A stretch of DNA of 60,083 nucleotides from a virus. Position 1 is the first letter of the stretch. Each line of letters opens with the position of its first letter. A program made the translations under genes and the position numbers. Under the pieces are notes generated by a model. That model ran no database searches. It was not told where the DNA came from and saw nothing but the letters and a program-made list of their open reading frames with translations. The stretch lies in the IMG/VR virus record IMGVR_UViG_3300030109_004892, positions 1 through 60,083 of that record, one strand, 5' to 3'. This document shows positions 4,256 to 57,917 of the stretch, in pieces.

Positions 4256-6028
4256 ATGGCCTCTCTTCAAGGATGGGGCCGACAGACCTGGAGTTCGGGT
4301 GCTTGGGATCAACAAGCACCTGTAGACGCTACAGGTAGTGGTCTCACTTCTACAGTTGGAACTGTATCGCTTTCGACGACAAATATATTTAGCGTAACAG
4401 GAAACCAACTTACATCTAGTATTGGCGACGCTACTCAGGCATCTGAGTATGCAGCGACTGGTAATGCGGTAACAACATCGTTAGGCACAATGCCTAATCC
4501 AACGATTGTTGATGACCAATTATTAACTGGATGGAACAGAGGTGTAGGCACATCAGTACCACTAGGATGGAACGCAGCATCTTGGGGTAATGGCGATTTT
4601 ATTTTAACTACAAGCAACGGATTATCTGGTGCTTCAATGACTTCTTCTCTTGGAGAAGAATCACCAATAATTAGTGTAGACTTTACACCTACTGGAATAG
4701 GTACCACTTCATCTGTAGGAACAGCTACGGCAATTGGTAATCAAATTACAACTCCTAATGGTAATGTTATTACATCATCTTTAGGTACAGAGACTGTAAC
4801 TGGATCTTCAACACATACTCTCACTGGCATAGGATTAACTTCGCAAGTAGGAGATGAAGATGCTCAAGGTGTTCGCCAATCAGGTTGGAACCGTGGAGCA
4901 AACCAAGTTACCGGTGAATTAATTGGTTGGGGTGATAACCTTTGGGGTACTTTAACAACCTCTTATGCTTTAACAGGAGCTCAAGCAACCACAGCAACCA
5001 CAGCCCCTGCGATTAATACAGACTTTAATATTACTGTTACTGGTGTTGGCTTAACTAGTTCAACTGGTGTACTTGGCGGCTTTGCTCAAGCTACTGGCGT
5101 TTCAGCTACATCATCAATAGGAACATTCTCTATATCAGGAGATTCAACATTAACTATCGTTGCTGCTAGTGAACCTGAAATGGATATTTCTACAGGAACC
5201 GCAGTTGTTGAAATTGGTAAAACAGCTTTCCCATCAGGAAATGCTATTAATGCAAGTCTTGGTTCTTTAACTGTAACTGGTACCGGTGTAATTTCGCCAA
5301 CAGGTGTTAATTTAACTGGTAGTATAGGAACTGAAGCAGTATCTACTGATGTCAATGTTGTAGGCGTAGGTGGACTTGTCACAAAAACTGTAACTGTTGT
5401 AAGTACAGCAAGTGGAAATAAATATTTTATTGATGGTGTTCAACAAGAAACTTTAGAGTTAGCTGAAGGAAACACATATAAATTTGATCAGTCAGATAAT
5501 ACTAATGATGGACATCCATTCCGTTTTTCTACAACATCAGACGGCACACACGGTGGAGGGTCTGAATATACAACTGGTGTAACAACAAATGGAACTCCAG
5601 GTAACGCAGGAGCATATACTCAAATAACTATAGCTTCTAGTGCACCAACTCTTTATTACTATTGTACTCAACATCCAGGCATGGGTGGTCAAGCTAATAC
5701 CCCTGCTTCTGATGGAAATGAATTTACTGCAAACGGCGCAACCAGTAATGTGGGATCTGCTACAATTAGTGGCGGAGCAACTGTTTCAGCAAGTGGAAAT
5801 GGATTAACTTCATCACTAGGTGAAGAAACACAAGAAACTAGCTATGAAGCACCTAGCGTTCAAGCGGTTGCAGATGTTGGTAATCCTACTATTAATATAA
5901 GTGTGGACTTTACACCTACTGGAGTTTCTGCTACAAGTAGTACAGGAACTTTACAAGGTACTTTTTGGAATGTTGTAGATGATTCTAACTCAGCAATAAG
6001 TTGGACGGAAGTCCATAAAGCTGCATAA
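4256..6028 (+). CDS. Repeat-rich tail protein with cupredoxin-like domain, 590 aa
   Basis: Most of the protein consists of short beta repeats of the form TG-x-G-(L/V/A)-T-S-S-x-G, separated by Trp-containing linkers such as GWNRG and GWG. Residues about 378-483 form a different domain: YFIDGVQQETLELAEGNTY, then GHPFRF (His420), then LYYYCTQHPGMGG (Cys470, His473, Met476). The Cys-x2-His-x2-Met spacing is that of amicyanin-type blue copper sites. The gene lies upstream of an S74 fibre, so it is probably a tail or receptor-contact protein. Copper binding is an inference from the ligands. AGGAG precedes the ATG. Confidence 0.75.
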   Translation: MASLQGWGRQTWSSGAWDQQAPVDATGSGLTSTVGTVSLSTTNIFSVTGNQLTSSIGDATQASEYAATGNAVTTSLGTMPNPTIVDDQLLTGWNRGVGTSVPLGWNAASWGNGDFILTTSNGLSGASMTSSLGEESPIISVDFTPTGIGTTSSVGTATAIGNQITTPNGNVITSSLGTETVTGSSTHTLTGIGLTSQVGDEDAQGVRQSGWNRGANQVTGELIGWGDNLWGTLTTSYALTGAQATTATTAPAINTDFNITVTGVGLTSSTGVLGGFAQATGVSATSSIGTFSISGDSTLTIVAASEPEMDISTGTAVVEIGKTAFPSGNAINASLGSLTVTGTGVISPTGVNLTGSIGTEAVSTDVNVVGVGGLVTKTVTVVSTASGNKYFIDGVQQETLELAEGNTYKFDQSDNTNDGHPFRFSTTSDGTHGGGSEYTTGVTTNGTPGNAGAYTQITIASSAPTLYYYCTQHPGMGGQANTPASDGNEFTANGATSNVGSATISGGATVSASGNGLTSSLGEETQETSYEAPSVQAVADVGNPTINISVDFTPTGVSATSSTGTLQGTFWNVVDDSNSAISWTEVHKAA

Positions 6029-6078: not shown

Positions 6079-7416
6079 ATGAGTTCAACATATTCAACAA
6101 GTTTGAGAATAGAGCTTCAAGCTACTGGTGCAAATTCAGGAACTTGGGGAACTATTACGAACAATAACTTTTCACAATCATTAGAGTTTTCGATTGCTGG
6201 AGTAACTAATGTTGCATGTGGAGATGCTGCTGTAACTACACTTACAAATGGCGATGGCCCACAATCACAAGCAAATAACCAAGCAAGAAATGCTCACATA
6301 AGACTTACAGGTGCACACGGTGCAGTAAGAATAGCTCAATTTCCAGCTACTCAAAAAGTTTATTTAATTACTAACGCAACTACAGATTCTGGATCTTCTG
6401 GTCCTTATGCAATGACTTGCAGATTAGGTGCTTCAGGTAATACAATTTCAATAGCTAACGGAGCAACAAGACTTGTTTCAACTGATGGCACAAACTGGTA
6501 TGATGTTTTTGCTGCTGGTGGAGTTTATGGTGGTGGTTTCTTAGCTGATAGCGCAGTAGACGTTAATGGAAAAGAATTAATTTTAGATGCAGATGCAGAC
6601 ACAAGTTTAACAGCAGACACAGATGATCAAATAGATGTAAAAATAGCTAACATAGATGTTGCTACTCTTACTACTGCAAATTCTGGTGACTTAGTAATTA
6701 CAAATGCAGTTCAAGATAAAGATTTTGTAGTTAAAGGTGATGACAATGGCGGTGCTATTACTGCACTAACACTTGATATGTCAGAAGCTGGAGCAGCAGA
6801 ATTTAATTCAACTGTTACTGCAACTCAAGGTATTTTTACAGCAGGAGCACAAGTTAAAAATGGTGCTACAGGCGCAGGTTTTATAGAATTTTATGAAGAC
6901 TCAGATAATGGAACAAATAAAGTTACTTTCGCAGGTCCTTCAGCAACAGCAGATGTAACTATTACACTGCCAGCACAAGCAGGCACAGTGGTTGTTTCAA
7001 ACACAACGGCTGGTAATGATGTTCAATTAGATTCTTTAGGTATTGCGACAGCAGCTTCAGGAACAGCAGGCGAGATTAGAGCAACAAATGATGTAACTGC
7101 TTTTTATTCTTCTGACGTTTCACTTAAAGAAAACATAGTTAACATTCCTTCACCAATGGATTTAGTTTCAAAATTAAATGGTGTTCTATTTGATTGGAAA
7201 AAAGATTATATAGATCAAAAAGGCGGAGAAGATGGTTATTTTGTTCGTAAAAAAGATGTTGGAGTTCTTGCACAAGATGTAGAAAAAGTCTTACCTGAAA
7301 TAGTAGGAACAAGAGATGATGGAATTAAAGCTGTTAAATATGATCGTTTAACTTCTTTGTTAATTGAATGTGTAAAAGACTTGCAAGGACAAATAGATAA
7401 ACTAAAAAGGAGTTAA
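6079..7416 (+). CDS. Tail fibre with S74 intramolecular chaperone domain, 445 aa
   Basis: The N-terminal region starts STYSTSLRIELQATGANSGTWG, which is common in fibre proteins of marine phages. The C-terminal ~100 residues carry the peptidase S74 signature: SSDVSLKENI, then FDWKKDY, VGVLAQDVEKVLPEIV, and YDRLTSLLIECVKDLQ. In this family the Ser of SDxxxK and the Lys five residues later cut the chaperone off after trimerisation, and both are present here. The middle (residues ~60-340) is a beta-rich shaft. GGAG lies 6 nt upstream of the ATG. Likely role: host receptor binding. Confidence 0.85.
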   Translation: MSSTYSTSLRIELQATGANSGTWGTITNNNFSQSLEFSIAGVTNVACGDAAVTTLTNGDGPQSQANNQARNAHIRLTGAHGAVRIAQFPATQKVYLITNATTDSGSSGPYAMTCRLGASGNTISIANGATRLVSTDGTNWYDVFAAGGVYGGGFLADSAVDVNGKELILDADADTSLTADTDDQIDVKIANIDVATLTTANSGDLVITNAVQDKDFVVKGDDNGGAITALTLDMSEAGAAEFNSTVTATQGIFTAGAQVKNGATGAGFIEFYEDSDNGTNKVTFAGPSATADVTITLPAQAGTVVVSNTTAGNDVQLDSLGIATAASGTAGEIRATNDVTAFYSSDVSLKENIVNIPSPMDLVSKLNGVLFDWKKDYIDQKGGEDGYFVRKKDVGVLAQDVEKVLPEIVGTRDDGIKAVKYDRLTSLLIECVKDLQGQIDKLKRS

Positions 7417-7418
7417 TA

Positions 7419-8420
7419 ATGCCTACTCCCAGTGCACCTAATGCAATATCACTCTCAGACGTAAACGACGAACTAGGTAATTCATCAACTGCTCAAATTA
7501 ATATGAGCGCTGCAGCAGTTAGAAGTTTAGCAGGAATTGGTTCTGCACCCGCAGTAATAACAATGGACGATCTTAGAGGCGTATCTGCTGAATATGACAT
7601 AGATTATTTATCAGTTGCAGGTGGCGGATCTGGTGGAACAGCTGAAGGATATTCAAATGGTACAACAGGTGGTTCTGGAGCAGGTGGCATGCTTACAGGA
7701 ACATTTACAGGAATTACCAGTGGAGGAACTCTTACAGTCACCGTTGGTGGCGGAGGAGCTGCAAGATCTGGTGGACAAAACGATGGAAACGCTGGATCAA
7801 ATTCTGGAATAGCTTCACCTTTAATTACAAACGTTACTTCTATTGGTGGCGGATATGGAGGTGGCGGTGGAAGTGATGACCCTGGTGGTGTTGGTGGTTC
7901 TGGTGGGGCAGCTTCAAGCTATCCTGGACCAGGAAATGCTGGTGCTGCTGGTACATCTGGTCAAGGCAATTCTGGTGGAACATCAAATACAGACAACAAC
8001 CGTGGCTCTGGTGGCGGCGGTGGAAAAGGCAATCCTGGAGGAAACTCATCAAGTCACTCTACCCCAGGCGGTGGTGGCGCTGGAGGATCAAGCAGTATAC
8101 AAGGCTCTCCTGCTACTTTTGCAGGTGGCGGTGGCGGTGGCGGCTCTAGTAGTAATAATGGTGGCTCCGGTGGTTCTGGCGGGGGAGGTACTGGTGGAAA
8201 AACTGATACTGGACAATCAGGAACTGCAAACACAGGCGGTGGTGGCGGTGGTGCTGGAAACAGTAGTGGTGATACATCAGGTGCAGGTGGTTCTGGCGTT
8301 GTAATTTTAAGTGTACCTACAGATAATTATTCAGGAACAACAACAGGTTCTCCAACAGTAACAACAAGTGGAACTAATACCATTATTAAATTTACTGGTT
8401 CAGGAACCTTAACAACTTAG
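7419..8420 (+). CDS. Glycine-rich tail adhesin, 333 aa
   Basis: After an N-terminal ~60-residue segment (ISLSDVNDELG...ITMDDLRG) the protein continues YLSVAGGGSGG and then a long region of glycine runs separated by short Ser/Asn/Thr stretches, ending in a beta segment (GSGVVILSVP). This is the glycine-rich domain of phage tail tips, comparable in style to the polyglycine adhesins of T4-like gp38. It follows the S74 fibre by 2 nt. It probably supplies variable receptor specificity. The GGTGGC repeats create long spurious frames on both strands. Confidence 0.75.
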   Translation: MPTPSAPNAISLSDVNDELGNSSTAQINMSAAAVRSLAGIGSAPAVITMDDLRGVSAEYDIDYLSVAGGGSGGTAEGYSNGTTGGSGAGGMLTGTFTGITSGGTLTVTVGGGGAARSGGQNDGNAGSNSGIASPLITNVTSIGGGYGGGGGSDDPGGVGGSGGAASSYPGPGNAGAAGTSGQGNSGGTSNTDNNRGSGGGGGKGNPGGNSSSHSTPGGGGAGGSSSIQGSPATFAGGGGGGGSSSNNGGSGGSGGGGTGGKTDTGQSGTANTGGGGGGAGNSSGDTSGAGGSGVVILSVPTDNYSGTTTGSPTVTTSGTNTIIKFTGSGTLTT

Positions 8421-8428
8421 GATTATGT

Positions 8429-8869
8429 ATGGCTCATTTTGCACAACTAGACGATAACAATATTGTAACAGGAGTTTTCGTTGTTAATAACGATGTTATT
8501 ACTGATGAAAACGGCGATGAACAAGAATCTCTTGGTCAAGCTTTTTTTCAAAACCATCATGGCGATACTAAAACATATTTAAAATGTTCATATAACACAA
8601 TGAGAAATAAGTATTGGGATGATATAGTTAATAGAGTTGAGGGAGATCAAAGTAAAAAATTAAGAGGTAATTATCCGAGTATTGGATACACATATGATCC
8701 AACGGCAGATGTTTTTTATGAACCTAAACCTTGGCCTTCTTGGGTTTTAGACACAACAACTTATACGTGGAAAGCTCCTACTGTTCAACCAACGGCAAAT
8801 GATAGTGATACTTTTGATTGGAAATGGGATGAATCATCAACAAGTTGGGTAAAATCCCCTCCTGAGTAA
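8429..8869 (+). CDS. Conserved tail-operon protein, 146 aa
   Basis: The sequence starts MAHFAQLDDNNIVTGVFVVNN and ends with Trp/Pro-rich motifs (PKPWPSWVLD, TYTWKAP, FDWKWDE). I recall the same layout in marine phage and cyanophage tail operons, where it is unnamed. It closes the + strand tail block and converges on the oxygenase cluster. A weak GAGTAA/TTACTC inverted repeat straddles the junction and may terminate transcription. Function unknown. Confidence 0.7.
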   Translation: MAHFAQLDDNNIVTGVFVVNNDVITDENGDEQESLGQAFFQNHHGDTKTYLKCSYNTMRNKYWDDIVNRVEGDQSKKLRGNYPSIGYTYDPTADVFYEPKPWPSWVLDTTTYTWKAPTVQPTANDSDTFDWKWDESSTSWVKSPPE

Positions 8870-8870: not shown

Positions 8871-9392
8871 TTAAAACCAATTAAAATTAATTACTCCTCT
8901 TACTTGTGAATCTGTATGCGTAGATCCTGCGTGTAAAACTTTTGTTGGAAAAATAACTATTCTGTTTTCTACACAATCAACTTTCTTGTTATTTTCAAAA
9001 ACAGACGGACCATTCGTTGTATTTAAAAAATATATAGCTGTCTTCATTTGATTTAAACTTAAATCATCATCATAATCTTGATGTAGACCGTAAGGTTTTA
9101 TTTCAGTTTCTTTTATAGTTAAATTTGCTTTAACTCTTTTTATAGCGTTTGGTTGTAAAATTTTAAAGAAAGGAAGTAAGTTATTATAATAAGCACTATT
9201 TGGAATAAAGTCATAATAAAACATATGAGTAAATTGCGTAACACCATCATCTATAACTTTATTGTAATTTAAAAACCAAGGGAATTCACTTTTGTTTAGT
9301 AATATGTCTTGCAAATTTTTAAATATTTTTTTGTCTAAAAAATTATCTATTACTCTTATTTCGTCGTGTTTCATTACTTCAATATCAAACAT
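8871..9392 (-). CDS. Putative Fe(II)/2-oxoglutarate-dependent oxygenase 1
   Basis: The double-stranded beta-helix signature is visible: PYGLHQDYDD (His and Asp ligands), IYFLN, a later RIVIFPTKVLHAG (second His ligand), and Arg about 11 residues later (QVRGVINF) to hold 2-oxoglutarate. The length of ~173 aa fits small phage oxygenases. The ATG at 9392 overlaps the TAA of the upstream gene (TAATG), and an in-frame ATG at 9404 is possible. It is the last gene of the - strand oxygenase operon. The substrate is unknown. Protein, sugar or DNA hydroxylation are all possible. Confidence 0.8.
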   Translation of the reverse strand: MFDIEVMKHDEIRVIDNFLDKKIFKNLQDILLNKSEFPWFLNYNKVIDDGVTQFTHMFYYDFIPNSAYYNNLLPFFKILQPNAIKRVKANLTIKETEIKPYGLHQDYDDDLSLNQMKTAIYFLNTTNGPSVFENNKKVDCVENRIVIFPTKVLHAGSTHTDSQVRGVINFNWF

Positions 9393-9979
9393 TAAAATAC
9401 CCACGATATATAGGTGTAACGAGTTCTTTTGGTAACAGGTTCTACTTTATGAGGAAACATAAAAGAAGAAGGAAAAATTAATACTTCCCCTGCTTTTATT
9501 TTATATTCTTTTTTATCAAACATAATAAATTCACCGCCCTCATAATCATCATTTAAAGAACCTAAGATACTGAGGAAAGGAATACCTTTTCTTTTACCAT
9601 CAAACATAGAATGAATATGATCACAATGAAGAGCCATTTTTTTGTTTTTTTTGTATCTATTAAATCTTATAGCTGTGTAACCATGCCATTCAGTAAACCA
9701 AGGCGTATCCAAATCTTTAAAATATTTATTAAGAGCATGCCATATTGAATCCATTATAATCTTTTTTTGTTCCCCAAGAGCTTGATGATAATAAAGAACA
9801 GACAACTCTTTACTACCTGATCTTGTGTGTGATTTTTTTAATCCTTCGTTATAAAAAGTATGTTGATTCCAACCCTCACTTTTATTTATGTTTTTAATAC
9901 AACTTTTACAAACGTCTTTGTCTATAACTTTATATGTTTTTATAAATTGATATAAAAACTCATTGTTGTAATTTATCAT
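9392..9979 (-). CDS. Putative Fe(II)/2-oxoglutarate-dependent oxygenase 2 (P4H-like)
   Basis: The product (195 aa) has ALHCDHIHSMFDG (His118, Asp120), then FLSILGSLNDDYEGGEF, a prolyl-4-hydroxylase-type strand, then EVLIFPSSFMFPHKVEPV (His177) and Arg187. The YEGGEF element and spacing place it near the P4Hc/PiuC-like 2OG oxygenases. All three metal ligands and the co-substrate Arg are present, so it is likely active. It overlaps the next upstream gene by 4 nt, so the operon is translationally coupled. Confidence 0.85.
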   Translation of the reverse strand: MINYNNEFLYQFIKTYKVIDKDVCKSCIKNINKSEGWNQHTFYNEGLKKSHTRSGSKELSVLYYHQALGEQKKIIMDSIWHALNKYFKDLDTPWFTEWHGYTAIRFNRYKKNKKMALHCDHIHSMFDGKRKGIPFLSILGSLNDDYEGGEFIMFDKKEYKIKAGEVLIFPSSFMFPHKVEPVTKRTRYTYISWVF

Positions 9980-10602
9980 AGTATTAATTCTGTAAGACTT
10001 TTTGTATCACCTAGTGTTCCTTTTATGTATGTATTAAAAGCCAAACTTATTCTTTCATTATTATCTTTTTTTGTTTTTACACTATGAGGAGTAGTAGAAG
10101 GAAAGAGTATTAACATTCCTGTTTTTATTTTATAGTTCCATTGAGCAGAATTAAAAAGACCATAGGTATGAGGATTCATTAATATATTTTCTAATGGTTG
10201 TCTTTTTTCCAATACAATACTATCAAACTCTGGATTAGCTTTTATGTAAAGAACTCCTGACACAAAAGAATTTTGATGCGAATGTAAATGATGAAACTCG
10301 TTATTTTTTGTATAGTTAAGCCACGATTGAGTAATATAAAGTTTTAAATCTTTTTTCTTTGGCATATAAACTTTTTGAAAATACTCATTAATATGTCTTG
10401 TTAAAGTGCTTTTTAATTGTTGAAAAGATTTTGTGTTTAAAACATAAGTATTATTACTTGTAATATTTCCAATGTTTCCATAACAATTTTTTTTATGATT
10501 ATTAACAGCTGTTAACTCTGCTTTAGTAAATTTTTTTACATCAAACGAATAATAAATAGGTACAGGAAAAATACCATCTATAGCGTAATCAAAAGTTTTC
10601 AT
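9976..10602 (-). CDS. Putative 2OG-Fe(II) oxygenase 3 (PF13759/TIGR02466-like)
   Basis: The N-terminal IFPVPIYYSFD, then EFHHLHSHQNSFVSGVLYIKA (His104-His109 region), then MLILFPSTTPHSV (His173) with ERISLAFN (Arg184) follow the TIGR02466 / 2OG-FeII_Oxy_5 pattern (H-x-H...SGVxY...FP...H...R). In this family the carboxylate ligand of the classical HxD motif is often replaced, so activity is less certain than for neighbours with HxD. Operon member with 1-4 nt overlaps on each side. Confidence 0.8.
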   Translation of the reverse strand: MKTFDYAIDGIFPVPIYYSFDVKKFTKAELTAVNNHKKNCYGNIGNITSNNTYVLNTKSFQQLKSTLTRHINEYFQKVYMPKKKDLKLYITQSWLNYTKNNEFHHLHSHQNSFVSGVLYIKANPEFDSIVLEKRQPLENILMNPHTYGLFNSAQWNYKIKTGMLILFPSTTPHSVKTKKDNNERISLAFNTYIKGTLGDTKSLTELIL

Positions 10603-11309
10603 TAGTAAATTTTATTACCTGTTGTAAAAGGGGTTGAATAACTTCTTTGTAAACCCGTTGTAGGAGTAGATATTTCATTAAAAAAAACAATTAATGTTAA
10701 CCTGTCTTGATCAATATTTGTATCAAATTTTCCTGCTCCATGCCATAGATAACCATCAAATCCAATGCACCTATTAAATAAATTTTTAAAACTAGCGGTC
10801 TCAGTAAAAAGAGAATTGTTTAATTTGTGAACTTTATTAAAAAATTTTTTTTCTTTTTCTGTTATTTCAACATTATCTCTAATCTTTTTATAATATAATT
10901 TTTTTGCTGATGCATAATCATTTGGAATTGTTTTAGCGCCATCTTTTTGTTCGTAAAAAGAAGTGCCTGAATTTAAATCAGCCAAGGGTGAGAGATAAAT
11001 AATAAAGGTGTGATTAACAGGATAGTCAGTGTGAATCCACCCTTCTGTATACTTAGTATTAACAATTTGAAAGTGAGCGTTTGCTTGATAGTAAAGATGT
11101 TTCATGTCCTCTTCACTATGATGGGCTCTTAAATATTTTATACAAATATGAGAGAAAAAATCTGGATAAATAATATGCAACGGTTGAGATCTGTATCCAG
11201 GCCATCTTCCCTCATCATCAGCCTCATAAGACAAAGTATTTGCATAATTAACTATTGAGGTAGGATTTTGAAAAAAATTATCTATACAAGTTAAAGGATA
11301 TTTAATCAT
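10602..11309 (-). CDS. DUF6445-like putative oxygenase 4, 235 aa
   Basis: The motifs WIHTDYPVNHTFIIYLSP (His93, Asp95), SGTSFY, and CIGFDGYLWHGAGKF (His190) followed by DRLTLIVFFN (Arg203) match the layout of DUF6445, a family with a 2OG-oxygenase fold. I chose the ATG at 11309, which lies inside the stop region of the upstream gene (AATGATTAA). A longer frame needs a TTG at 11333. Also part of the same coupled operon. The substrate is unknown. Confidence 0.75.
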   Translation of the reverse strand: MIKYPLTCIDNFFQNPTSIVNYANTLSYEADDEGRWPGYRSQPLHIIYPDFFSHICIKYLRAHHSEEDMKHLYYQANAHFQIVNTKYTEGWIHTDYPVNHTFIIYLSPLADLNSGTSFYEQKDGAKTIPNDYASAKKLYYKKIRDNVEITEKEKKFFNKVHKLNNSLFTETASFKNLFNRCIGFDGYLWHGAGKFDTNIDQDRLTLIVFFNEISTPTTGLQRSYSTPFTTGNKIY

Positions 11310-11625
11310 TTGGATCTTTTCCAGGGTTAACAAAATAAGTTAGATTACCTATTTTTTCATTAGATAAAATTGCATCTTTTAATTTAAGATAAATTTTATG
11401 AGTGGTTTTATTTACAACTTCAGCGGGTTGTTCAAAGTTTAAATTGTGTTTAATATATTCTTGAGTTTTTTTCTTAGTAAAAAGAATTATAGATCCAGGA
11501 GTTAAATTAACAGAAAATTTTGGTTGAACGCTTATTGCTCTAACATCATTTCCGTAGAAAACTTTCACACCTTCATAATTAGATTTTTTATATTTTAAGT
11601 CTTTTAAATAATTTATTTCTTCCAT
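11302..11625 (-). CDS. Unknown protein within oxygenase operon, 107 aa
   Basis: No recognised domain. The sequence is charged with a central beta-like stretch (KFSVNLTPGSIILFTKKK) and basic N-terminus. It is overlapped by the DUF6445-like gene downstream and separated by 2 nt from the oxygenase upstream, so it is co-expressed with them. It lacks His/Asp iron ligands, so it is not an oxygenase itself. A partner or substrate role is possible. Confidence 0.65.
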   Translation of the reverse strand: MEEINYLKDLKYKKSNYEGVKVFYGNDVRAISVQPKFSVNLTPGSIILFTKKKTQEYIKHNLNFEQPAEVVNKTTHKIYLKLKDAILSNEKIGNLTYFVNPGKDPND

Positions 11626-11627
11626 TA

Positions 11628-12296
11628 TTATAATTGCATTCTTTGATTATTAGAATCAAAAATACTTAAATTACCTGCAACAGATACTCTTTCTCCTTTT
11701 GTTTTATAAGGAATTACAGCGTGCATTAAATTGTGTGGAAACAAATATAACTCTCCTACCTCGGGTAAAAAACTATGTCCGTTATTAACCCAAAAATTAG
11801 GTTCACCATAATAAAAATCAAGGGCTCCTGGCCCTGCTGAACTTCCTTGATATTTATTTCTTTCTTTCTCAAGTTTAGGAACTTTTACAAATAAAACAAA
11901 AGACATGTGACAATTGGTGTGAACATGACTAGGATTAAATTCATTTTCTTGCATAAAATTAATCCATAAATTATCCAATTTAACATTTTGTAAGGCACCA
12001 AGAGGATAACTTTGTCCTGCACGTCGAGGAGACCATTTCTTCATAAAATGGTGTAAATATCCGTGAGCTATTTTAACAATATGAGGTTCAAATGATGCTT
12101 TAATATCATCAGAAAAATAATATTCTTTTTCTATGACTCCCGCTAAATCTTTTCTTGCATCATTATTTTTTTGTTTTCTCCCTGCTTTTAACAACTTGTT
12201 AGTAATTTGTTTACTAACCTTAGTTCTAAACAACAAAGGTCCCCAATAAAAATAATTAAAACTTATCTCTTCCATTCTTTTTTCTGTCTCTTTCAT
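11628..12296 (-). CDS. Putative 2OG-Fe(II) oxygenase 5 (PF13759-like)
   Basis: Carries WINFMQENEFNPSHVHTNCH (His124, His126), SFVLFVKVP, and GELYLFPHNLMHAVIPY (His192) with GERVSVAGNL (Arg203). This is the same H-x-H / FP-x-x-x-x-H / ER-x-S arrangement as the TIGR02466-type members of this cluster. Length 222 aa. A + strand gene (12403-12618) interrupts the operon just upstream, so a separate promoter or read-through from upstream is needed for this segment. Confidence 0.8.
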   Translation of the reverse strand: MKETEKRMEEISFNYFYWGPLLFRTKVSKQITNKLLKAGRKQKNNDARKDLAGVIEKEYYFSDDIKASFEPHIVKIAHGYLHHFMKKWSPRRAGQSYPLGALQNVKLDNLWINFMQENEFNPSHVHTNCHMSFVLFVKVPKLEKERNKYQGSSAGPGALDFYYGEPNFWVNNGHSFLPEVGELYLFPHNLMHAVIPYKTKGERVSVAGNLSIFDSNNQRMQL

Positions 12297-12338
12297 AGCA
12301 TATTTTCTCTGTCAAGAAAACAATTATAAAAAGATTGC

Positions 12339-12366
12339 TTGATATATTTGGCACACATGTTTAAAT
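12339..12366 (+). promoter_or_regulatory. Putative sigma70-type promoter for the 12403 gene
   Basis: TTGATA at 12339-12344, a 16-nt spacer and TTAAAT at 12361-12366, followed by AGGAG at 12393-12397 and the ATG at 12403. It is placed in the only intergenic gap of the oxygenase cluster and points against the cluster. Confidence 0.4.
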
Positions 12367-12402
12367 TAGATCTCACCCAAAATTTAAAAATCAGGAGATA
12401 TT

Positions 12403-12618
12403 ATGGAAAATCAAGAAGTATTGAAGGCTATAGCTACCCTTGTAGATAAGGTGAGTAAGTATCACGAACGTTTATTACAATTAGAACGAGAAAAAGAAAG
12501 GTTAAGTGATGCCTTTGCAAGACATCTTCAAGGATGTGCTTGTCATAATACTTCAGATGAAGAAGTAATATTAACAGGCTTAGATTCTGATATAGAGTGC
12601 GAAGCTTGTAGTGCTTAA
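12403..12618 (+). CDS. Small coiled-coil/Cys protein encoded against the oxygenase operon, 71 aa
   Basis: The product has a helical charged N-terminal half with a heptad-like pattern (LLQLEREKERLSDAF) and a C-terminal part with four Cys (CACHN...CEAC), possibly a metal site. AGGAG is 5 nt from the ATG. The gene is on the + strand between two - strand oxygenase genes and converges with the downstream one (1-nt gap). Because it has its own promoter-like sequence it may be expressed at another time, perhaps as a moron-like regulator. Function is unknown. Confidence 0.65.
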   Translation: MENQEVLKAIATLVDKVSKYHERLLQLEREKERLSDAFARHLQGCACHNTSDEEVILTGLDSDIECEACSA

Positions 12619-12870
12619 TTATTCAGGTGTTTCGCCTAGCATATCTGCTAATGATGGAGCAAATACTTTTACATCTCTCCTAATTTTTTCTGCTGTTGTA
12701 GAAGTTCCTGGATTATCAACATCAGCTTGAGCTGCATCTTCTGATTCATATTCAACACCTGTATCAGCGTGAGTAATTGTTGTTTCAGTTTTTACTTTAT
12801 AGTGAGGAATTCTTCTTCCATCACTTGTTGTAATGTGTCCTAGTAATTCAGCGGGTTCAACTATCGGCAT
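12619..12870 (-). CDS. Conserved small acidic protein, 83 aa
   Basis: Sequence MPIVEPAELLGHITTSDGRRIPHY followed by a segment with THADTGVEYESEDAAQADVD and an end SLADMLGETPE. I recall similar proteins in marine phages, with no assigned function. GGAGAG lies 7 nt before the ATG. The ATG is inside the 3' end of the upstream oxygenase gene (14-nt overlap). Beta-rich and acidic, without membrane segments. Confidence 0.65.
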   Translation of the reverse strand: MPIVEPAELLGHITTSDGRRIPHYKVKTETTITHADTGVEYESEDAAQADVDNPGTSTTAEKIRRDVKVFAPSLADMLGETPE

Positions 12871-13453
12871 CTTTGTCTCTCCAATTTATGTTAAAACTAA
12901 TGATAACTCTATCTTCATCAGAATTATTTGTTTGTACTTCATGTTGTAACCAAGATGGGAAAAAAATCAAGGAATTTTCAATAGGTTCCCATTGTACGCT
13001 GTGAGCGAGGTGTATAGAAGCTTTATCTGTTTTTGGGGGTGATAGTACCTCTGACTGTGGTTTTGGCTCTAGAAACACAATACTGCCACTTTTTTTAGGT
13101 GCCTTTAAATAAAATACACCAGATAGATAGTTATAAGGATGAGTATGAACATTATTTCTAGATCTTGGTGGATTAATCATGCCCCACATTCCAGTCACTT
13201 CAGGAACATAATTATCTTTGACATCCATGTGATTAAAACAATCTTTAGAATATTTAAGAATATCATTAACTAAAGGCTTAAACTTTTTTATTTTATATAT
13301 TTCATCATTACTATGCCATCCACCAATGTTTGATCGAGGCATTCCTTTTTGATCCTTTTCTCGTAATTGATAAATAGCATCAACAAGATTTTCATGACCT
13401 TCAAGTGGAAGAGAAAATACAGGGGTAATAAATAAAGAATGAAGATTAATCAG
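12857..13453 (-). CDS. Putative 2OG-Fe(II) oxygenase 6 (TIGR02466-like), non-ATG start
   Basis: The core carries RNNVHTHPYNYLSGVFYLKA (His103, His105), SGSIVFLEP, and SLIFFPSWLQHEV (His171) with EDRVIISFN (Arg182), a near-textbook TIGR02466 pattern. The first in-frame ATG (13342) would delete the family's usual N-terminal strand. That strand is encoded just upstream in frame (SLFITPVFSLPLEGHENLV) and is preceded by AAAGGA five nt before a CTG codon at 13451-13453 (the next codon is ATT). I therefore place the start there, giving 198 aa. Confidence 0.8.
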   Translation of the reverse strand: MINLHSLFITPVFSLPLEGHENLVDAIYQLREKDQKGMPRSNIGGWHSNDEIYKIKKFKPLVNDILKYSKDCFNHMDVKDNYVPEVTGMWGMINPPRSRNNVHTHPYNYLSGVFYLKAPKKSGSIVFLEPKPQSEVLSPPKTDKASIHLAHSVQWEPIENSLIFFPSWLQHEVQTNNSDEDRVIISFNINWRDKDADS

Positions 13454-13812
13454 AGTTGTCCTTTCGTAATCTCCAAATAACTTGCAGTAACATGTACTTG
13501 GTTAGCTGCATTAGCTTGAACTTTCATAACATCACTTTCTTGTAAAACTAATGGTTGTTCTAATAATTCTGTTGTTGTTTTTGTAGCAACACTTTTTTCT
13601 TTAAATACTTCAAACGTCGCTGATGATCTCAAAACTTCTATATCAAGAAGAGTGGTATTAGCTGAGTCATTACAAACTAAAATAGATTTAATAACTGCTG
13701 TTGTGGGTGCAACGGGAGGTGATGCACCAGGATCCGCTGCTGGTACAGTAATTAAAGTTGTTAAGTCTGTCGTAGTAACATCCAACATTGCGCTTTTAAA
13801 TACATTAGCCAA
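13450..13812 (-). CDS. Conserved virion-associated protein, 120 aa, TTG start
   Basis: Begins MANVFKSAMLDVTTTDLTTL and continues with beta-strand repeats (IKSILVCNDSANTTLLDIEVL, SDVMKVQANAANQVHVTASYLEI). This is the pattern of small trimer-forming beta proteins found with neck/tail genes of cyanophages and pelagiphages. The start is TTG with AGGAGG 9 nt upstream, inside the end of the preceding small gene. It is embedded in the oxygenase cluster, so it is a candidate physical target of those enzymes. Confidence 0.7.
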   Translation of the reverse strand: MANVFKSAMLDVTTTDLTTLITVPAADPGASPPVAPTTAVIKSILVCNDSANTTLLDIEVLRSSATFEVFKEKSVATKTTTELLEQPLVLQESDVMKVQANAANQVHVTASYLEITKGQL

Positions 13813-13972
13813 AGAAAAAAGCCTCCTGCTCGGATTCTTCTTTTAATTCGTTTTGGTAGTTTGTATTAAGAAGTAAAATAATTTGATCCAACATAGCAAT
13901 CATTTGATTAAATTGACTAGCACTATATTCTGGTGTTGCGTTAGGTAATCTTGTTATTGTTATTTTAGCCAT
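13805..13972 (-). CDS. Small conserved protein upstream of virion gene, 55 aa
   Basis: Short protein MAKITITRLPNATPEYSASQ followed by a helical segment (FNQMIAMLDQIILLLN) and an acidic Phe-rich tail (EEESEQEAFFFG-like). It overlaps the start of the next gene by 8 nt and follows the oxygenase at 13974 by 1 nt. I recall similar short sequences beside tail genes of marine phages. It may be a chaperone or a minor virion peptide. Function unknown. Confidence 0.65.
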   Translation of the reverse strand: MAKITITRLPNATPEYSASQFNQMIAMLDQIILLLNTNYQNELKEESEQEAFFFG

Positions 13973-13973
13973 A

Positions 13974-14504
13974 CTATCTTTTAGAATAAATTAGGCTTAA
14001 AGTCATTCTAAATTTAGGCCCTTTTATGGATTGTGGTCTAATTGTGTGTGGAATAGAACCGTCAAACAGTAATATTCTACCTGGTATAAAAGATGAGGCA
14101 AAATCAATTTTTTGTAAATTTAAGGGATCATAGAATAATGTTTCACCATACCATCCATCTTTCCAATCCAAGTTCACATAATACAATGCTATCTGTTTAT
14201 TCCAATGTGTGTGAATATAATGCACATCTTCGGACTTTACTAAGTTAATTATAATGCGTTCTAGTTTTTTATTTTGAAACCAAGGTGTTTCTTCTATACA
14301 ATTTTCAATACACGGAAGTATATTTTCTTTTGATAAATCTTTTATAGACCATTCTGAAAATAAATTAGGTTCACTTTCTTTTACAACAACTGCATCTTCC
14401 CATCCTAATTTGTAAAAAGAATTATGTGTTGATTTATATATTTCACTTCTTGTTTTAAAAGATACTTTGTTGTCAAATATTTTTATTTTTTTATCTTCTT
14501 CCAT
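13974..14504 (-). CDS. Putative 2OG-Fe(II) oxygenase 7, 176 aa
   Basis: Motifs: DVHYIHTHWNKQIALYYVN, WYGETLFYDP, then PGRILLFDGSIPHTIRP (His153) and FRMTLSLIY (Arg166). The LYYVN...GETLFYD strand pair is typical of a 2OG oxygenase subgroup seen in phages and marine bacteria. The carboxylate ligand is not in the usual HxD position. The ATG at 14504 overlaps the gp10-like gene by 14 nt. A longer in-frame start at 14552 would overlap much more and is less likely. Confidence 0.75.
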   Translation of the reverse strand: MEEDKKIKIFDNKVSFKTRSEIYKSTHNSFYKLGWEDAVVVKESEPNLFSEWSIKDLSKENILPCIENCIEETPWFQNKKLERIIINLVKSEDVHYIHTHWNKQIALYYVNLDWKDGWYGETLFYDPLNLQKIDFASSFIPGRILLFDGSIPHTIRPQSIKGPKFRMTLSLIYSKR

Positions 14505-16335
14505 CAGGTCTAAGTTGAAGCTTAGTTGAGCCAAGTCTCCAAGCTGTATCACCTATAGTATTTGACTCCCATTTTATCTTCACTGCTCTTCCTCTCCCTC
14601 TTACATTAATTTTCTGCGTTGTGCTAGAAATAGTTCCTGAAGTAGAAACACTATTTGTGGATTGAGGATATTGGTTTAATGTTAAAGTAGCCGTTAAGGT
14701 ATTTGATAGATTATCAAAGTCAGGAACTAATTTACTAACTGACATTAAATTATCCCCATCTGCTATTTCTACTGAACCTGTAGTTAAAAAAGCTGAAATT
14801 GCTGCACCATTCGCTTGATTATTACCTGTCTCATGTTCATAAACATAAGAAGCTCCTGCGGTCAAACCTAATATAGTAGATACATTTGCTGTTACACTTG
14901 TGCTATATTCTGTTGCGATTGGTTGTTCATATACATAAGCACCGAGCCAGGTTGTTCTGGCTAAACTTATTGTGTACCAAGTATTTTCTAAATAATTGTA
15001 AACAACACCTCTATCTATTTGTGTTGCATTAGATGATGGGTAGTACCAAATAATTTCATTAAAGGCTGTGTTTAATCCAACGGCGATATCATTTCTATTT
15101 GTATAACTCATATCATCGAATACATAATCCTGTACAGAGCAAGGCATTTTTTTAACAACACCATCATACAAATAAAAAGAATCATCTGACATCCAATATG
15201 CTTTTCCATTTACCTCTATTGCTGCGTGTTGTGCTATCAATCCACAGTTAGCACCAAGTTGTCTCATACCAAAAGTAAAAGGTGTTCCAACAAATTGAAT
15301 ACCGTGCATAGAAGTATCGGTCCAAACAAGTATTTGACCTGAAGATTTAACAGCGCCCATTATTTTAGAACCGTCAGATATACGAAGTGAACCTGCTTCA
15401 TTAGTAGCTACAGGAGTATAATCAGTAGCATCTTCTCTATCAGAAAAACGAAAAAATAAATCATCCTGAGTAGAAGTGTTACCAATTGTTGTTTCTGTTC
15501 CAAAAATTAATAAGTGTCTGGTATCAGTAGAAACCAAACTAAATCTAGAAGCTGTCGGAGCATTAGATAAAGCTGTTGCTCTATTGCTTACTCCCCCTGA
15601 TGTATCCCAAACAAAAGTACCACCATTTAAAACAGTAGCAATTAAATCTTCTCCAAAGTTATCTAAGGACCATTGACGTGCTGACAATACAACATCTGAA
15701 CTAGACCTAGCAGTGCCCCAAGTACTTAATCCCCAAGTTAATGTACCCCAACCATATCCAAAAGTAGAAGTAGCAGGTCCTGTAGTTATTTGATAGTTAG
15801 CATTTCCTGCTCCGCCTCCTCCGGATGTTGAGCCAGAGGCTGTACTAGTATGAGTAACTTTATATGTGTTAGCATCTACATAAGTTGTAACTTCAAACTC
15901 GTTGTTCATATCTAAACCATCAATCGTAGAAAAAGAATCAAAAGTTACAAAGTCTCCTGCAGCAGCTCCATGATCTGCGTCTGTAACAGTTACTGTAGTA
16001 GTGCCGTTTGTTGTAAAAGGATTGGTTAAAGAAGCTGTTTCTCTAATAGGGGTAATATCAGTAAAGCCACCACCTACATAAATATATAGTTTTCTATCTG
16101 TTCCTAAAGCTAGATATCTGGTTCCATCTAAACCAATCCAGGAATATGTATCACGGACCACGCCCACAATAGTTTTATTAGGACTAGGTAAGTATGCCCA
16201 ACCACTCCATCTCTCAGGTTTTCCGTAGTGAAAACGTACAAAATCAGAGTCAACATATTTACGTTGGTCTCCTGCTGAATAAGCAGTATCTTGTTTATCT
16301 ATACCTGGTTGGAACTTTAAATCAGTTAATTTCAT
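14491..16335 (-). CDS. P22 gp10-like tail hub / DNA stabilisation protein, 614 aa
   Basis: Starts MKLTDLKFQPGIDKQDTAY, then DSDFVRFHYGKPERWSGW, the N-terminal signature of gp10-like proteins, which close the tail below gp4 in P22-type phages. The rest is beta-rich and contains RDTYSWIGLDGTRYLALGT, MGAVKSSGQILVWTD and MRQLGANCGL, consistent with the family. It is encoded on the - strand, opposite to portal and gp4 genes, and lies inside the oxygenase cluster. The C-terminal part is Thr/Ser-rich. Confidence 0.8.
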   Translation of the reverse strand: MKLTDLKFQPGIDKQDTAYSAGDQRKYVDSDFVRFHYGKPERWSGWAYLPSPNKTIVGVVRDTYSWIGLDGTRYLALGTDRKLYIYVGGGFTDITPIRETASLTNPFTTNGTTTVTVTDADHGAAAGDFVTFDSFSTIDGLDMNNEFEVTTYVDANTYKVTHTSTASGSTSGGGGAGNANYQITTGPATSTFGYGWGTLTWGLSTWGTARSSSDVVLSARQWSLDNFGEDLIATVLNGGTFVWDTSGGVSNRATALSNAPTASRFSLVSTDTRHLLIFGTETTIGNTSTQDDLFFRFSDREDATDYTPVATNEAGSLRISDGSKIMGAVKSSGQILVWTDTSMHGIQFVGTPFTFGMRQLGANCGLIAQHAAIEVNGKAYWMSDDSFYLYDGVVKKMPCSVQDYVFDDMSYTNRNDIAVGLNTAFNEIIWYYPSSNATQIDRGVVYNYLENTWYTISLARTTWLGAYVYEQPIATEYSTSVTANVSTILGLTAGASYVYEHETGNNQANGAAISAFLTTGSVEIADGDNLMSVSKLVPDFDNLSNTLTATLTLNQYPQSTNSVSTSGTISSTTQKINVRGRGRAVKIKWESNTIGDTAWRLGSTKLQLRPDGRR

Positions 16336-16351
16336 GTTGGAGTATACTAAA

Positions 16352-17140
16352 TTATTTATTGTTTTGTGGCAAGAATTGAGTGGCTACATTACCTTTGAAA
16401 GGGTAATTACCAAAATGAGTCATACCACTAAGAATATCAGCATATATTTTACCACCTATTTTCTGCCATAAACGACAAAAAGAATAATCTTCAGATAAAT
16501 ATCTTTTAGTTTCTGGTTCCACCATAGTATCAAAAAATGCATAGTTCCAATCAGATGTATCATGATAATCAAATTCTGTATCATGTGGTTGATTTAAATG
16601 TTGGTCAGATTTAAATTTTAAATCAGGATAGGCCTTAGCCATTTTCTCAAACACTTGTCTTTTTATCAACATAAAACCTGTTGCACCGTCTAACACTTCA
16701 ATAAATCCTTTTTCCACTTTAACATTGTTTGGATCTTTAACATTTAAATTATATTGTAAAGAAGCTGCGTGTAATTCATCTTCTCCTATGTTAGGATCTT
16801 CAGTTACTCTTCTTTTAACTTTTGTCCAATCAATTAATTTACGAGGATAAACACCTGTTGTTACATCCTGATCTAAATCTAACATACGAAAAACTGATTC
16901 AGGATTAAAAGCAATATCAGCATCAATAAATAAAAGATGAGTATATTTTTTTTCATCCATAAATAATTGCACTAAAGTATTACGAGCCCGTGTTACTAAT
17001 GATTCATTACCAATTGTACCAATTTGAATTTCTATTTTCTTTTGAGAAGCTAAAGCAATAAGTTGTAAACAACTTTTAAAATAATCTGCTGTAAGCATAC
17101 CCCCATAACAAGGGGTACCTATGAAGATCTTATGTGACAT
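16352..17140 (-). CDS. Family 2-like glycosyltransferase (GT-A fold), 262 aa
   Basis: N-terminal KIFIGTPCYGG, then ESLVTRARNTLV and THLLFIDADIAF (Asp73-x-Asp75, the metal and nucleotide-sugar binding DxD motif), followed by VTTGVYPRK and later DGATGFMLIKR and YLSEDYSFC. This order is typical of GT-A enzymes in marine phages and cyanophages. It may glycosylate virion proteins, possibly after hydroxylation by the neighbouring oxygenases, or alter the host surface. It overlaps the next oxygenase by 11 nt. The acceptor is unknown. Confidence 0.85.
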   Translation of the reverse strand: MSHKIFIGTPCYGGMLTADYFKSCLQLIALASQKKIEIQIGTIGNESLVTRARNTLVQLFMDEKKYTHLLFIDADIAFNPESVFRMLDLDQDVTTGVYPRKLIDWTKVKRRVTEDPNIGEDELHAASLQYNLNVKDPNNVKVEKGFIEVLDGATGFMLIKRQVFEKMAKAYPDLKFKSDQHLNQPHDTEFDYHDTSDWNYAFFDTMVEPETKRYLSEDYSFCRLWQKIGGKIYADILSGMTHFGNYPFKGNVATQFLPQNNK

Positions 17141-17642
17141 CTTTATAAAATATGTTTAATGTAGATCTATTAGAGCTATCACCGAAAGATTGTAAATCTG
17201 AATGTGGTATTTTCATGCCATTAAAAAACAAAGCTCTATTTTCTACAAAACCTATGTGAGAAGATAATTGATTGTTATGCATAAACCCAGTGCCATTATT
17301 AAGGAGGGGTTCTCCCTTAACAAATAAAAGAAAGTTTGCGACATTTCCTTTATCATCATCTGTATGAAACAAAGGTTCTTTGTTATTTTGTCTATAGTGT
17401 GCACTCACGGATATCGGCTCAAGGTTCCTGTGCGGAAAAAAATATTGTTTAATTAACTTTAACAATGGATCATCGTGAAAACTTTTAGGAAAGGTGTGTC
17501 TATGACCATACACTTGACCTTCTGGATTATCTACTTGAGTATAGCTTAAATTCATAAGAGTATTTTGTAATGATTTTAATGTAGCTTCATCCAAAAAATC
17601 ATCAACATACATAACAAATTTTGTATTTTTATTGTGTTGCAT
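17130..17642 (-). CDS. Putative 2OG-Fe(II) oxygenase 8, 170 aa
   Basis: PLFHTDDDKGNVANFLLFVKG (His93, Asp95), NNGTGFMHN, ENRALFFNGMKIPHSDLQS (His147) and NRSTLNIFY (Arg159) give a complete HxD...H...R set, so the enzyme is probably active. It resembles the DUF6445 group in the xGTGFM element. It is coupled to the glycosyltransferase gene (11-nt overlap) and to the small gene upstream (14-nt overlap). Confidence 0.8.
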   Translation of the reverse strand: MQHNKNTKFVMYVDDFLDEATLKSLQNTLMNLSYTQVDNPEGQVYGHRHTFPKSFHDDPLLKLIKQYFFPHRNLEPISVSAHYRQNNKEPLFHTDDDKGNVANFLLFVKGEPLLNNGTGFMHNNQLSSHIGFVENRALFFNGMKIPHSDLQSFGDSSNRSTLNIFYKDVT

Positions 17643-17913
17643 AATCTACTTTTAAATATTCTATTTTCTTTAACCAATCTTTGGGTATAGCAATAGCGCC
17701 ACCACCTGTAACATCATCTTTGTCTTTGCTGTAAGATCTCATAATAACTATTCTTTCATCATTATTAGTAATCATCCAACCTACTTCTTGGCACACGGCC
17801 AACGGTGCATTAATAACTTCTTTTATATCCAGCCACCCAGTTTCTGTATCACGGGCATCGAGCCACGTCACACGGACCATTGGAATTTTATTTATATCAA
17901 ACCCTTCACCCAT
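17629..17913 (-). CDS. Small conserved protein, 94 aa
   Basis: The product contains RVTWLDARDTETGWLDIKEV, then VGWMITNNDERIVIMRSYSK and AIAIPKDWLKKIEYL. I recall the same pattern in small marine phage proteins, where it has no defined function. A compact alpha/beta SH3-like or ubiquitin-like fold is conceivable. The ATG and the upstream TAA share a base, so it is co-translated with the upstream oxygenase. Confidence 0.7.
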   Translation of the reverse strand: MGEGFDINKIPMVRVTWLDARDTETGWLDIKEVINAPLAVCQEVGWMITNNDERIVIMRSYSKDKDDVTGGGAIAIPKDWLKKIEYLKVDYATQ

Positions 17914-18584
17914 TATTCATTAATAGGTTCTTTTTTCTTTAGCTGTAAATTAAAAGAAACAGATCTTCTCTCTTCATTTTGTGTTCTGAAAGGATAAACA
18001 CCATGAGATAACCAAGCAGGAAAAAGATATATTGCGCCAACCTCTGGAGTAGCTTGATGTTTATGACCACTAAAAGTTGCTGCTTGTCCACAGTGCCAAA
18101 TAATATCTCCCACACAAGGATAATGATCTTCTTTTGCGTATTCGTCTTTAAGACTAGGGGGTACACGTAAATAAATTACACCTGATAATTCTCCTTGATG
18201 AATATGAAAAGGATTGAAGTCTCCCGCCCACTGGCTCACGGCCCACATAGATTCAACAACCATTGATCCTACAAAAGCAGGTGATATAGTATCACTTGCA
18301 GGAGGAATAGAAATGTATTGTTTAACTATTTCACCTATCGCATTAATGATTGGTTTAAATTTTTTACCCTCTAAATCTTCCATAGGATATCTAACTTCTT
18401 GCTTAACATTGCCTGCTAAGTTCATTGAATGATCATATTCCTTAGCTAATTTTTTATCATTAAATAACTGTGATGCCTTATCATCTAACACTTTAATCAT
18501 ACTATTAGGTAATTTACCTTGTAATATAGTAGGACCAAAAGGTCTTACGGCATGAAATTCTATTTTAGTTGGTTCTTTATTCAT
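17913..18584 (-). CDS. Putative 2OG-Fe(II) oxygenase 9 (PF13759-like), 223 aa
   Basis: FNPFHIHQGELSGVIYLRV (His127, His129), GDIIWHCGQ, GAIYLFPAWLSHGVYPF (His194) and ERRSVSFNL (Arg206 or 207) give the TIGR02466-type arrangement. N-terminal VRPFGPTILQGKLP corresponds to the usual opening strand. It is the first oxygenase of the - strand operon and overlaps a 49-aa leader gene. It is the closest sequence counterpart, by motif order, of oxygenase 5 (11628-12296). Confidence 0.8.
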   Translation of the reverse strand: MNKEPTKIEFHAVRPFGPTILQGKLPNSMIKVLDDKASQLFNDKKLAKEYDHSMNLAGNVKQEVRYPMEDLEGKKFKPIINAIGEIVKQYISIPPASDTISPAFVGSMVVESMWAVSQWAGDFNPFHIHQGELSGVIYLRVPPSLKDEYAKEDHYPCVGDIIWHCGQAATFSGHKHQATPEVGAIYLFPAWLSHGVYPFRTQNEERRSVSFNLQLKKKEPINE

Positions 18585-57353: not shown

Positions 57354-57917
57354 ATGAGAATTCTTTTTTTTGTATTATGTTTTATTTTAGTTGCTAGTGC
57401 AATTACGAGCGCTAATGGAGCAGATACGAACACGGTGTCTTCGACCGTTGTAACGGACAAGGCACCACCAACTGCAAACTCACCAAGTGTTGTTGTAAAC
57501 AATTCTGATGTGTGTAAGACAGCGGCAGCAGGTGCGGTGCAAACCCAGATTCTAGGTATTAGCAGCGGAATTACTATTACGGACGAAAATTGTGAACGTA
57601 TAAAATTAAGTCGCTCACTTTACTCGATGGGCATGAAGGTGGCCGCAGTGTCAACACTTTGTGCTGATCCTCGTGTGTGGGATGCAATGTATATGGCAGG
57701 TACATATTGTCCGTACATGGGAGCTATAGGGGAAGAAGCTAAAGAAGGGTGGGAAAAAAATCCTGCTTTAGTACCTGAAGGATCTCAAGTATTTAAACAA
57801 ATAGAAATTAAACAAAAAGAACAACAAACAACTGGACTAACGGATGGGCAAAAACTTCTTAAATTTATTGTATTGGGTATGGCTATGCATTCTGGTATCG
57901 TGGCATTCGCCCCTTAG
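57354..57917 (+). CDS. Secreted protein with signal peptide, 187 aa
   Basis: The first ~22 residues (MRILFFVLCFILVASAITSA) form a clear signal peptide with Ala at the cleavage site. Then Thr/Val/Pro-rich linker, and a Cys-containing core (CKTAAAGAVQTQILGISSG, DPRVWDAMYMAGTYCPYMGA). The last ~25 residues share DNA with the signal peptide of the next gene. I recall related proteins from marine phages, no function known. Likely periplasmic during infection. Confidence 0.7.
   Translation: MRILFFVLCFILVASAITSANGADTNTVSSTVVTDKAPPTANSPSVVVNNSDVCKTAAAGAVQTQILGISSGITITDENCERIKLSRSLYSMGMKVAAVSTLCADPRVWDAMYMAGTYCPYMGAIGEEAKEGWEKNPALVPEGSQVFKQIEIKQKEQQTTGLTDGQKLLKFIVLGMAMHSGIVAFAP

Follow-up and report, generated by a model that had tools for sequence, protein, structure and literature searches.

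What are nine divergent oxygenase genes doing in the tail region of a single phage? The question is raised by an IMG/VR virus record of 60,083 bases, the whole of which is called the window here. Positions 8871-18584 of the window hold genes ox1 to ox9 (Table 1), which belong to 2-oxoglutarate (2OG)-Fe(II) oxygenase families, together with a glycosyltransferase-like (GT) gene, a tail protein gene and several small genes, all beside a tail fibre and a Gly-rich adhesin. A reading of the sequence alone had proposed hydroxylation followed by glycosylation of virion proteins or surface sugars. Virion-protein modification has become the best-supported reading: the oxygenase set next to the fibre tracks fibre type and adhesin, not the conserved backbone genes, and the same layout recurs in the Pelagibacter phage HTVC008M. 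The chances are slightly better than even that the block is a cassette hydroxylating, and sometimes further decorating, the phage's own adhesin or fibre.

Slot Architecture and Coupling to the Fibre

The block was searched with Pfam, PHROGs and NCBIfam profiles on listed open reading frames (ORFs), and other contigs were searched for the same gene set. Relatives were sought with the tail protein, ox6 and ox4 as queries; pooled with the window and five phage loci that already had annotation, they were reduced to 90 distinct contigs. A megablast comparison of the block to phage records gave no match. Protein families in the related contigs carry K-numbers (K5, K10, K16, K17 and so on) and loci carry L-numbers (L085 is HTVC023P). 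The relatives share a fixed gene order, ox9 - c - GT - tail - b - ox6 - a, with three variable slots: slot 1 around c and GT (ox8 in the window), slot 2 at tail and b (ox7), and slot 3 between a and the fibre genes (ox1 to ox5). The position of the K5 ORF, a family with 56 members among the related contigs and on the strand opposite to the block, is possibly the boundary of the exchanged cassette. The nine oxygenase genes all lie on the minus strand, as had been claimed, but this 71-amino acid ORF on the plus strand lies within the block as well.

Slot cargo consists mostly of additional oxygenases, and complete blocks, from ox9 to the fibre, hold 6-11 of them. The earlier view that nine in one array is rare was therefore overstated, all the more as nine oxygenase-type genes stand in a row in cyanophage S-CREM1. 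In relatives, the oxygenases are accompanied by O-transferases: a sulfotransferase (PF13469, 3.7e-7), a split NodU-type carbamoyltransferase (PF02543, PF16861) and, on the opposite strand, an RMNT/CmcI (O-)methyltransferase (PF04989, 1.5e-7); a tryptophan halogenase (PF04820, 1e-104) and a DUF6065 gene also occur. Families K48 and K111 are read from motifs as GT9-like and K163 as a methyltransferase, with no Pfam match above cut-off. Judged by their families, the shared trait of the cargo genes is that they encode enzymes installing or derivatizing groups. One relative has four K43/K58 oxygenase genes in tandem (L008:15089-17152), a local amplification of the ox1 type beside the fibre. In slot 3 of type-A phages (defined below), K44 (L101:2339-3223) is a fusion of an HD/DUF6817 domain to a 2OG oxygenase domain.

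Two fibre types occur: type A has a collar domain (PF07484), and type B, as in the window, has K17, the Gly-rich adhesin and an S74 fibre. Among the 41 contigs having both ox6 and a fibre (25 type A and 16 type B), K10 and K12 are present in every type A contig (25/25) and in no type B contig (0/16; p = 1e-11), and K21, K23, K25, K30, K31 and K34 are confined to type B. K25 is found in none of the 25 type A and eight of the 16 type B loci, with identical counts for K30; the window gene of these two families matched no Pfam family. In contigs whose ox6 is at least 95% identical, the mean Jaccard index of slot-3 content is 0.46 within a fibre type and 0.02 between types. Fibre type has switched at least 6 times on the ox6 tree (8 by parsimony), and slot 3 switched along with it in 6/6 supported independent pairs (sign test, p = 0.031). 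Slot 3 and the fibre are co-inherited.

Finer variation within type B follows the same direction. Slot-3 content correlates with sequence identity at 0.91 for K17, 0.92 for the Gly-rich adhesin and 0.73 for the S74 fibre, and drops to 0.07 at the fourth fibre-side gene. On the backbone side the value is 0.27 at the first gene and ranges from 0.11 to 0.13 over ox6 (0.12), b and tail (0.11). Slot 3 therefore belongs to the fibre, not to the backbone. Slots 1 and 2, upstream, have no association with fibre type. Exchange of an oxygenase set together with the fibre suggests that the oxygenases chemically decorate the protein with which the phage grips its host.

Identity of the Nine Genes

All nine genes that the sequence-only reading had called oxygenases are present and match oxygenase families, and where it had seen at least three subtypes there are at least four groups: PF13759/TIGR02466 (ox3, ox5, ox6, ox9), PF13640 (ox2), DUF6445 (ox4) and a phrog_274 type (ox1, ox7, ox8). 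Their catalysis is predicted from this membership. The PF13759 group scores 60-82 bits against a gathering cut-off of 27 and also matches TIGR02466, whose stricter cut-off is passed only by ox3 and ox6; ox4 scores 51 bits against the DUF6445 gathering cut-off of 24. The match of ox7 to the FlmC-type 2OG oxygenase model NF052475 (3.5e-14) reaches 53 bits against an NCBIfam cut-off of 240, and by its sequence ox7 is related to the FlmC family and not a member.

In orthologue alignments, an HxD motif (HxH in the PF13759 group) is followed by a distal His and, 10-13 residues beyond it, an Arg; this pattern is invariant in 8/9 families. The motif is H108xD110...H158...R169 in ox1 (invariant among 19 sequences), H118xD120...H177...R187 in ox2, H107xH109...H173...R184 in ox3, H124xH126...H192...R203 in ox5 and H93xD95...H147...R159 in ox8 (invariant among 49 sequences). 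In ox4 the invariant residues are H101xD103...H198...R211, equal to 92/94/189/202 in the shorter alignment row A4, and the gene probably starts at the ATG at 11309 instead of the TTG at 11333. The metal site of ox7 is HWN (HxN) in the window and HWD in 4/4 orthologues; the enzyme in the window may have been inactivated or altered recently. The HxH...H metal site replaces HxD...H throughout the orthologues of ox3, ox5, ox6 and ox9, a possible three-histidine triad that would be unusual among 2OG enzymes.

Structural comparison was more uneven. The ox8 protein, which has no Pfam oxygenase match, gave a model (predicted local distance difference test, pLDDT, 90; predicted template modelling score, pTM, 0.87) that folds like prolyl hydroxylases, matching PHD2, prolyl 4-hydroxylase (P4H) and other 2OG enzymes with a best E of 6e-7 and template modelling (TM) scores of 0.59-0.71. 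The AlphaFold model of ox4 reached a pLDDT of only 46, probably owing to a shallow alignment. Profile searches of the PDB led from the ox7/ox1 group (alignment A2) to P4Hs, PHD2 and OGFOD1; by sequence, ox6 has a solved relative in PDB 3bvc (1.8e-13) and ox2 in PDB PKHD hydroxylases (2.6e-5). The same kind of search gave no PDB match for the alignments of ox4 or ox8. In HHalign comparisons ox8 and ox4 were connected at 92%, with no link of ox7 or ox1 to the other oxygenases, so the assignment of these two rests on PHROG, NCBIfam and PDB profile matches; that of ox4 is based on its Pfam family, its motif and the profile match to the ox8 family. In BLAST among the nine, only ox3, ox5, ox6 and ox9, and marginally the pair ox5/ox7, match each other. 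With so little shared sequence, the array is not a recent tandem duplication. Ratios of nonsynonymous to synonymous substitution rates (dN/dS) are 0.09-0.35 in all nine, which are therefore maintained genes under purifying selection.

Several database labels on family members look wrong, judging by their sequences. The label 'ferrochelatase' falls on K16, namely on L031:6769-7389, HTVC023P gp67 (L085:7295-7915), HTVC008M gp068 and a gene of P-RSM4. K16 has an invariant H108xD110...H161 pattern, and neither L031:6769-7389 nor HTVC023P gp67 matched a Pfam ferrochelatase domain, or any Pfam family, at E 0.01. It is most likely another 2OG-type enzyme, with PDB matches too weak to prove the fold. 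The phrog_274 label 'DNA endonuclease V' and the phrog_1644 label 'minor coat protein' also land on 2OG-type proteins. A DNA repair function drawn from the former was rejected: members match 2OG families, and the profile matches prolyl hydroxylases.

For the genes interspersed with the oxygenases, the earlier assignments fared differently. The 'gp10-like' tail protein agrees with phrog_3287, and a relative carries the annotation 'stabilization protein'. The case for a glycosyltransferase is weaker than had been claimed: an FIDAD motif ('FIDADIAF') and the match to phrog_34859 favour it, but the top curated GT Pfam match reaches 16.8 bits against a cut-off of 27, and its best PHROG, phrog_1574, is of unknown function. 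Beyond the block, the S74 fibre (PF13884) and Gly-rich adhesin (PF21722) were recovered as described, and the tail protein at 4256-6028 (plus strand) matches phage tail PHROGs. Its cupredoxin-like stretch (YYYCTQHPGMGG plus an upstream His), which could bind copper, has no Pfam match at 0.01.

Similar Arrays in Other Phages

The closest parallel in layout is gp065-gp072 of HTVC008M, a Pelagibacter myovirus, where a Gly-rich adhesin and K17 are likewise met by a convergent oxygenase array of the same families (K16-K18-K34-K9-K21, after K17). In direct comparison the N-terminus of gp065 is 52% identical to the window adhesin; tblastn with the adhesin gave no match, probably because of low-complexity filtering. 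HTVC008M differs in having five oxygenases, not nine, and in being a T4-like phage with the array between baseplate and neck genes. The papers found do not describe gp065-gp072 as one unit. P-RSM4 has K17 within an array of oxygenases that also includes a carbamoyltransferase, and a fibre is only a few genes away. S-CREM1 has a Gly_rich_2 protein (the Pfam family of the window adhesin) and a halogenase, then its nine consecutive genes, of which 7/9 match Pfam oxygenase, JmjC or DUF6445 models, some below the curated cut-off; one of the remaining two matches the K16 model. Mimivirus has a collagen-type system in which a virus-encoded 2OG hydroxylase and glycosyl transfer act on a repetitive structural protein. 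The likeness to the window lies in protein hydroxylation followed by glycosylation; the virus is eukaryotic and the enzymes are different.

S-CREM1 has ten members of the window's oxygenase families and S-SCSM1 has 24, some of them in arrays, along with a tryptophan halogenase; seven of the S-SCSM1 oxygenases are near tail fibre genes. Unlike the window, both are T4-like myoviruses, and the available text of their descriptions reads these as host-metabolism genes (PMC9964418, PMC9602691). In HTVC023P-type pelagiphages, a related lineage, eight non-orthologous 2OG genes are colocated and have 'ferrochelatase' partners; the accessible part of PMC9599517 treats them as auxiliary metabolic genes (AMGs). 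HTVC023P shares its tail region and gene families with the window, and its gp65-gp67 adjoin the fibre-side K17 gene, but the window tail protein is only about 43% identical to its counterpart. The same oxygenase families are listed as AMGs in the available portions of PMC3037559, PMC9602691, PMC9964418 and PMC10436341, and no link between these oxygenases and fibres was found in the consulted parts of those four papers or of PMC9599517. Literature searches on sulfotransferases together with carbamoyltransferases in cyanophages, on collagen, oxygenase and tail fibre in cyanophages, and on hydroxyproline in virions of phages found nothing describing this system. As a gene cluster, the oxygenase array is of a known kind and not unprecedented; its adhesin-coupled slot organisation, with O-transferases and halogenases, appears undescribed in the literature searched.

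Proposed Function and Alternatives

If the block modifies virion proteins, it would be a tailoring island, with three variable slots set in a conserved tail-gene backbone. The fibre-adjacent oxygenases, ox1 to ox5 in the window, are exchanged as a single cassette along with the Gly-rich adhesin, K17 and the S74 fibre, and would most likely hydroxylate side chains of the adhesin or fibre before or during assembly, using Fe(II), O2 and 2-oxoglutarate. The sulfo-, carbamoyl- and methyltransferases, tryptophan halogenase and GT-like genes of relatives may act on this protein too, or on the hydroxyls that the oxygenases produce, and the backbone enzymes ox6, ox9 and GT may target a constant virion component. 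The phage might benefit through variation in receptor contact, through stability or through evasion. Several of the solved structures related by sequence or fold are protein hydroxylases (P4H, PHD2, OGFOD1). Hydroxylation followed by glycosylation, the order proposed earlier, gains no support here: the GT-like gene sits in the conserved backbone, not in the fibre-linked slot, and its relatives adjoin DNA-replication genes in two other phages, Cr30 and phiM12.

Several points weigh against virion modification. From these patterns we infer that a virion protein is the substrate, and likewise which reactions occur, in what order and to what advantage. The contigs were picked by similarity to the window, so the sample is not random. 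Within type A, fine variation of slot 3 hardly tracks fibre sequence (partial r 0.04 and 0.18), and Bellamy and Melnitz-2 have a Gly-rich protein and K17 with no oxygenase within 4 kb. Slot 3 abuts the fibre genes, so physical linkage may yield part of the association, and even a strong asymmetry of linkage is no proof of function, as the cassette could move mechanically as a block. Linkage by itself is the main rival, although an unlikely one: the slots would be cargo hot spots where recombination replaces the fibre along with adjacent cargo in a single exchange, and the enzymes would have unrelated functions. It would fit with slot 3 directly adjoining the fibre while slots 1 and 2, which do not, lack the association with fibre type, and with the loss of correlation by the fourth fibre-side gene. 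It fits less well with an r that is still 0.92 two genes into the fibre side but 0.27 one gene into the backbone side, with the recurrence of the adhesin/K17/oxygenase unit in a myovirus, with recognisable cargo that is mostly tailoring chemistry, or with purifying selection on all nine genes.

The other alternatives place the substrate outside the virion. Less likely still than linkage, the enzymes may alter host surface glycans or lipids (lipopolysaccharide, capsule) during infection, for example against superinfection, the fibre link then reflecting the receptor to be altered; a receptor-altering gene could likewise travel with the fibre, and glycans or small molecules are common substrates of the GT-like, sulfotransferase, NodU-type carbamoyltransferase and RMNT/CmcI methyltransferase families. 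Neither the block nor the slots showed genes for nucleotide-sugar synthesis, however, the solved relatives of the ox7 group and of ox8 include protein hydroxylases, and one glycan would hardly explain many different oxygenases per fibre. Locking to fibre type, nine divergent enzymes per block and interchange with sulfo- and carbamoyltransferases are all left unexplained by auxiliary metabolism, in which the enzymes would consume 2-oxoglutarate or otherwise reprogram the host; it is improbable here, although it is the published reading for T4-like cyanophages in the available text of PMC3037559, PMC9602691 and PMC9964418. DNA hypermodification, with TET/JBP-like base hydroxylation and then glycosylation by GT, is the least probable of all. 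The replication-side neighbours of GT relatives in Cr30 and phiM12 and the PHROGs label 'DNA endonuclease' on some members speak for it, but the oxygenase families are P4H- and PF13759-like, the block sits among virion genes, and the scan of replication-side genes showed only a Dam-type adenine methylase. PF12851 (TET_JBP) gave no match in the window, a weak argument as control genomes were likewise silent.

Implications

Few accessory genes of marine phages are as numerous as those for 2OG oxygenases, with 1-5 in a typical T4-like cyanophage and up to 24, and the role of these enzymes has so far been listed as unknown or guessed as host metabolism. Coupling of oxygenase set and adhesin offers a testable alternative, chemical tailoring of receptor-binding proteins. 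A broader version is tentative, with chances somewhat short of even: marine phages of more than one morphotype may diversify their own receptor-binding proteins by interchangeable adhesin-specific cassettes of hydroxylases, sulfo-, carbamoyl-, methyl- and glycosyltransferases and halogenases. If so, host range would vary at a second level, above that of amino acid sequence, and would not be predictable from sequence alone. A large class of 'auxiliary metabolic' oxygenases would gain a function, and ocean virome annotations that label oxygenases, halogenases, carbamoyltransferases and 'ferrochelatases' as 'AMG' would have to be revised. Both HTVC008M and HTVC023P are in culture, which makes direct testing possible.

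Features of the Block and Its Surroundings

Table 1. Genes of the oxygenase block and of its fibre side, in window coordinates; contig counts refer to the related contigs.
Feature	Coordinates	Strand	Assignment	Place
S74-chaperone tail fibre	6079..7416	+	PF13884 1.2e-11; possible substrate	
Gly-rich adhesin	7419..8420	+	PF21722 2.9e-16; proposed substrate	
K17	8429..8869	+	small protein, phrog_7759 3e-36	after fibre/adhesin genes, convergent with oxygenase array
ox1	8871..9404	-	phrog_274-type 2OG oxygenase, phrog_274 7e-42	slot 3, fibre-linked
ox2	9392..9979	-	P4H-like 2OG oxygenase, PF13640 2.6e-13	slot 3
ox3	9976..10602	-	PF13759 1.1e-20, TIGR02466 above cut-off	slot 3
ox4	10602..11333	-	DUF6445 (PF20043) 1.9e-13, 2OG-type motif	slot 3
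K25/K30 gene	11302..11625	-	small gene	only with type-B fibre set
ox5	11628..12296	-	PF13759 3.7e-16	slot 3
K5 ORF	12403..12618	+	71 amino acids, conserved	slot 3 inner edge
a	12619..12870	-	small gene	backbone, 62/90 contigs
ox6	12857..13342	-	PF13759 5.8e-23, TIGR02466 2.6e-30	conserved backbone, 70 contigs
b	13450..13812	-	small virion-type gene, phrog_1276 1.1e-6	backbone, 70 contigs
ox7	13974..14552	-	FlmC-like/phrog_274-type 2OG oxygenase, phrog_274 1.7e-15	slot 2
tail	14491..16335	-	tail/stabilization (gp10-like) structural protein, phrog_3287 3.8e-78	backbone
GT	16352..17140	-	glycosyltransferase-like, phrog_1574 2.1e-45, phrog_34859 (glycosyltransferase) 2.3e-4	backbone
ox8	17130..17642	-	2OG oxygenase, phrog_274 1.5e-10	slot 1
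c	17629..17913	-	small gene, phrog_25889	backbone, 48 contigs
ox9	17913..18584	-	PF13759 5.8e-18	conserved backbone, 43 members

A terminal repeat was looked for in the window and none was found. Far from the block, the plus strand at 57844-59541 encodes a long low-complexity protein of Met/Glu/Asp repeats (EMEMEFEMEMELEM...).

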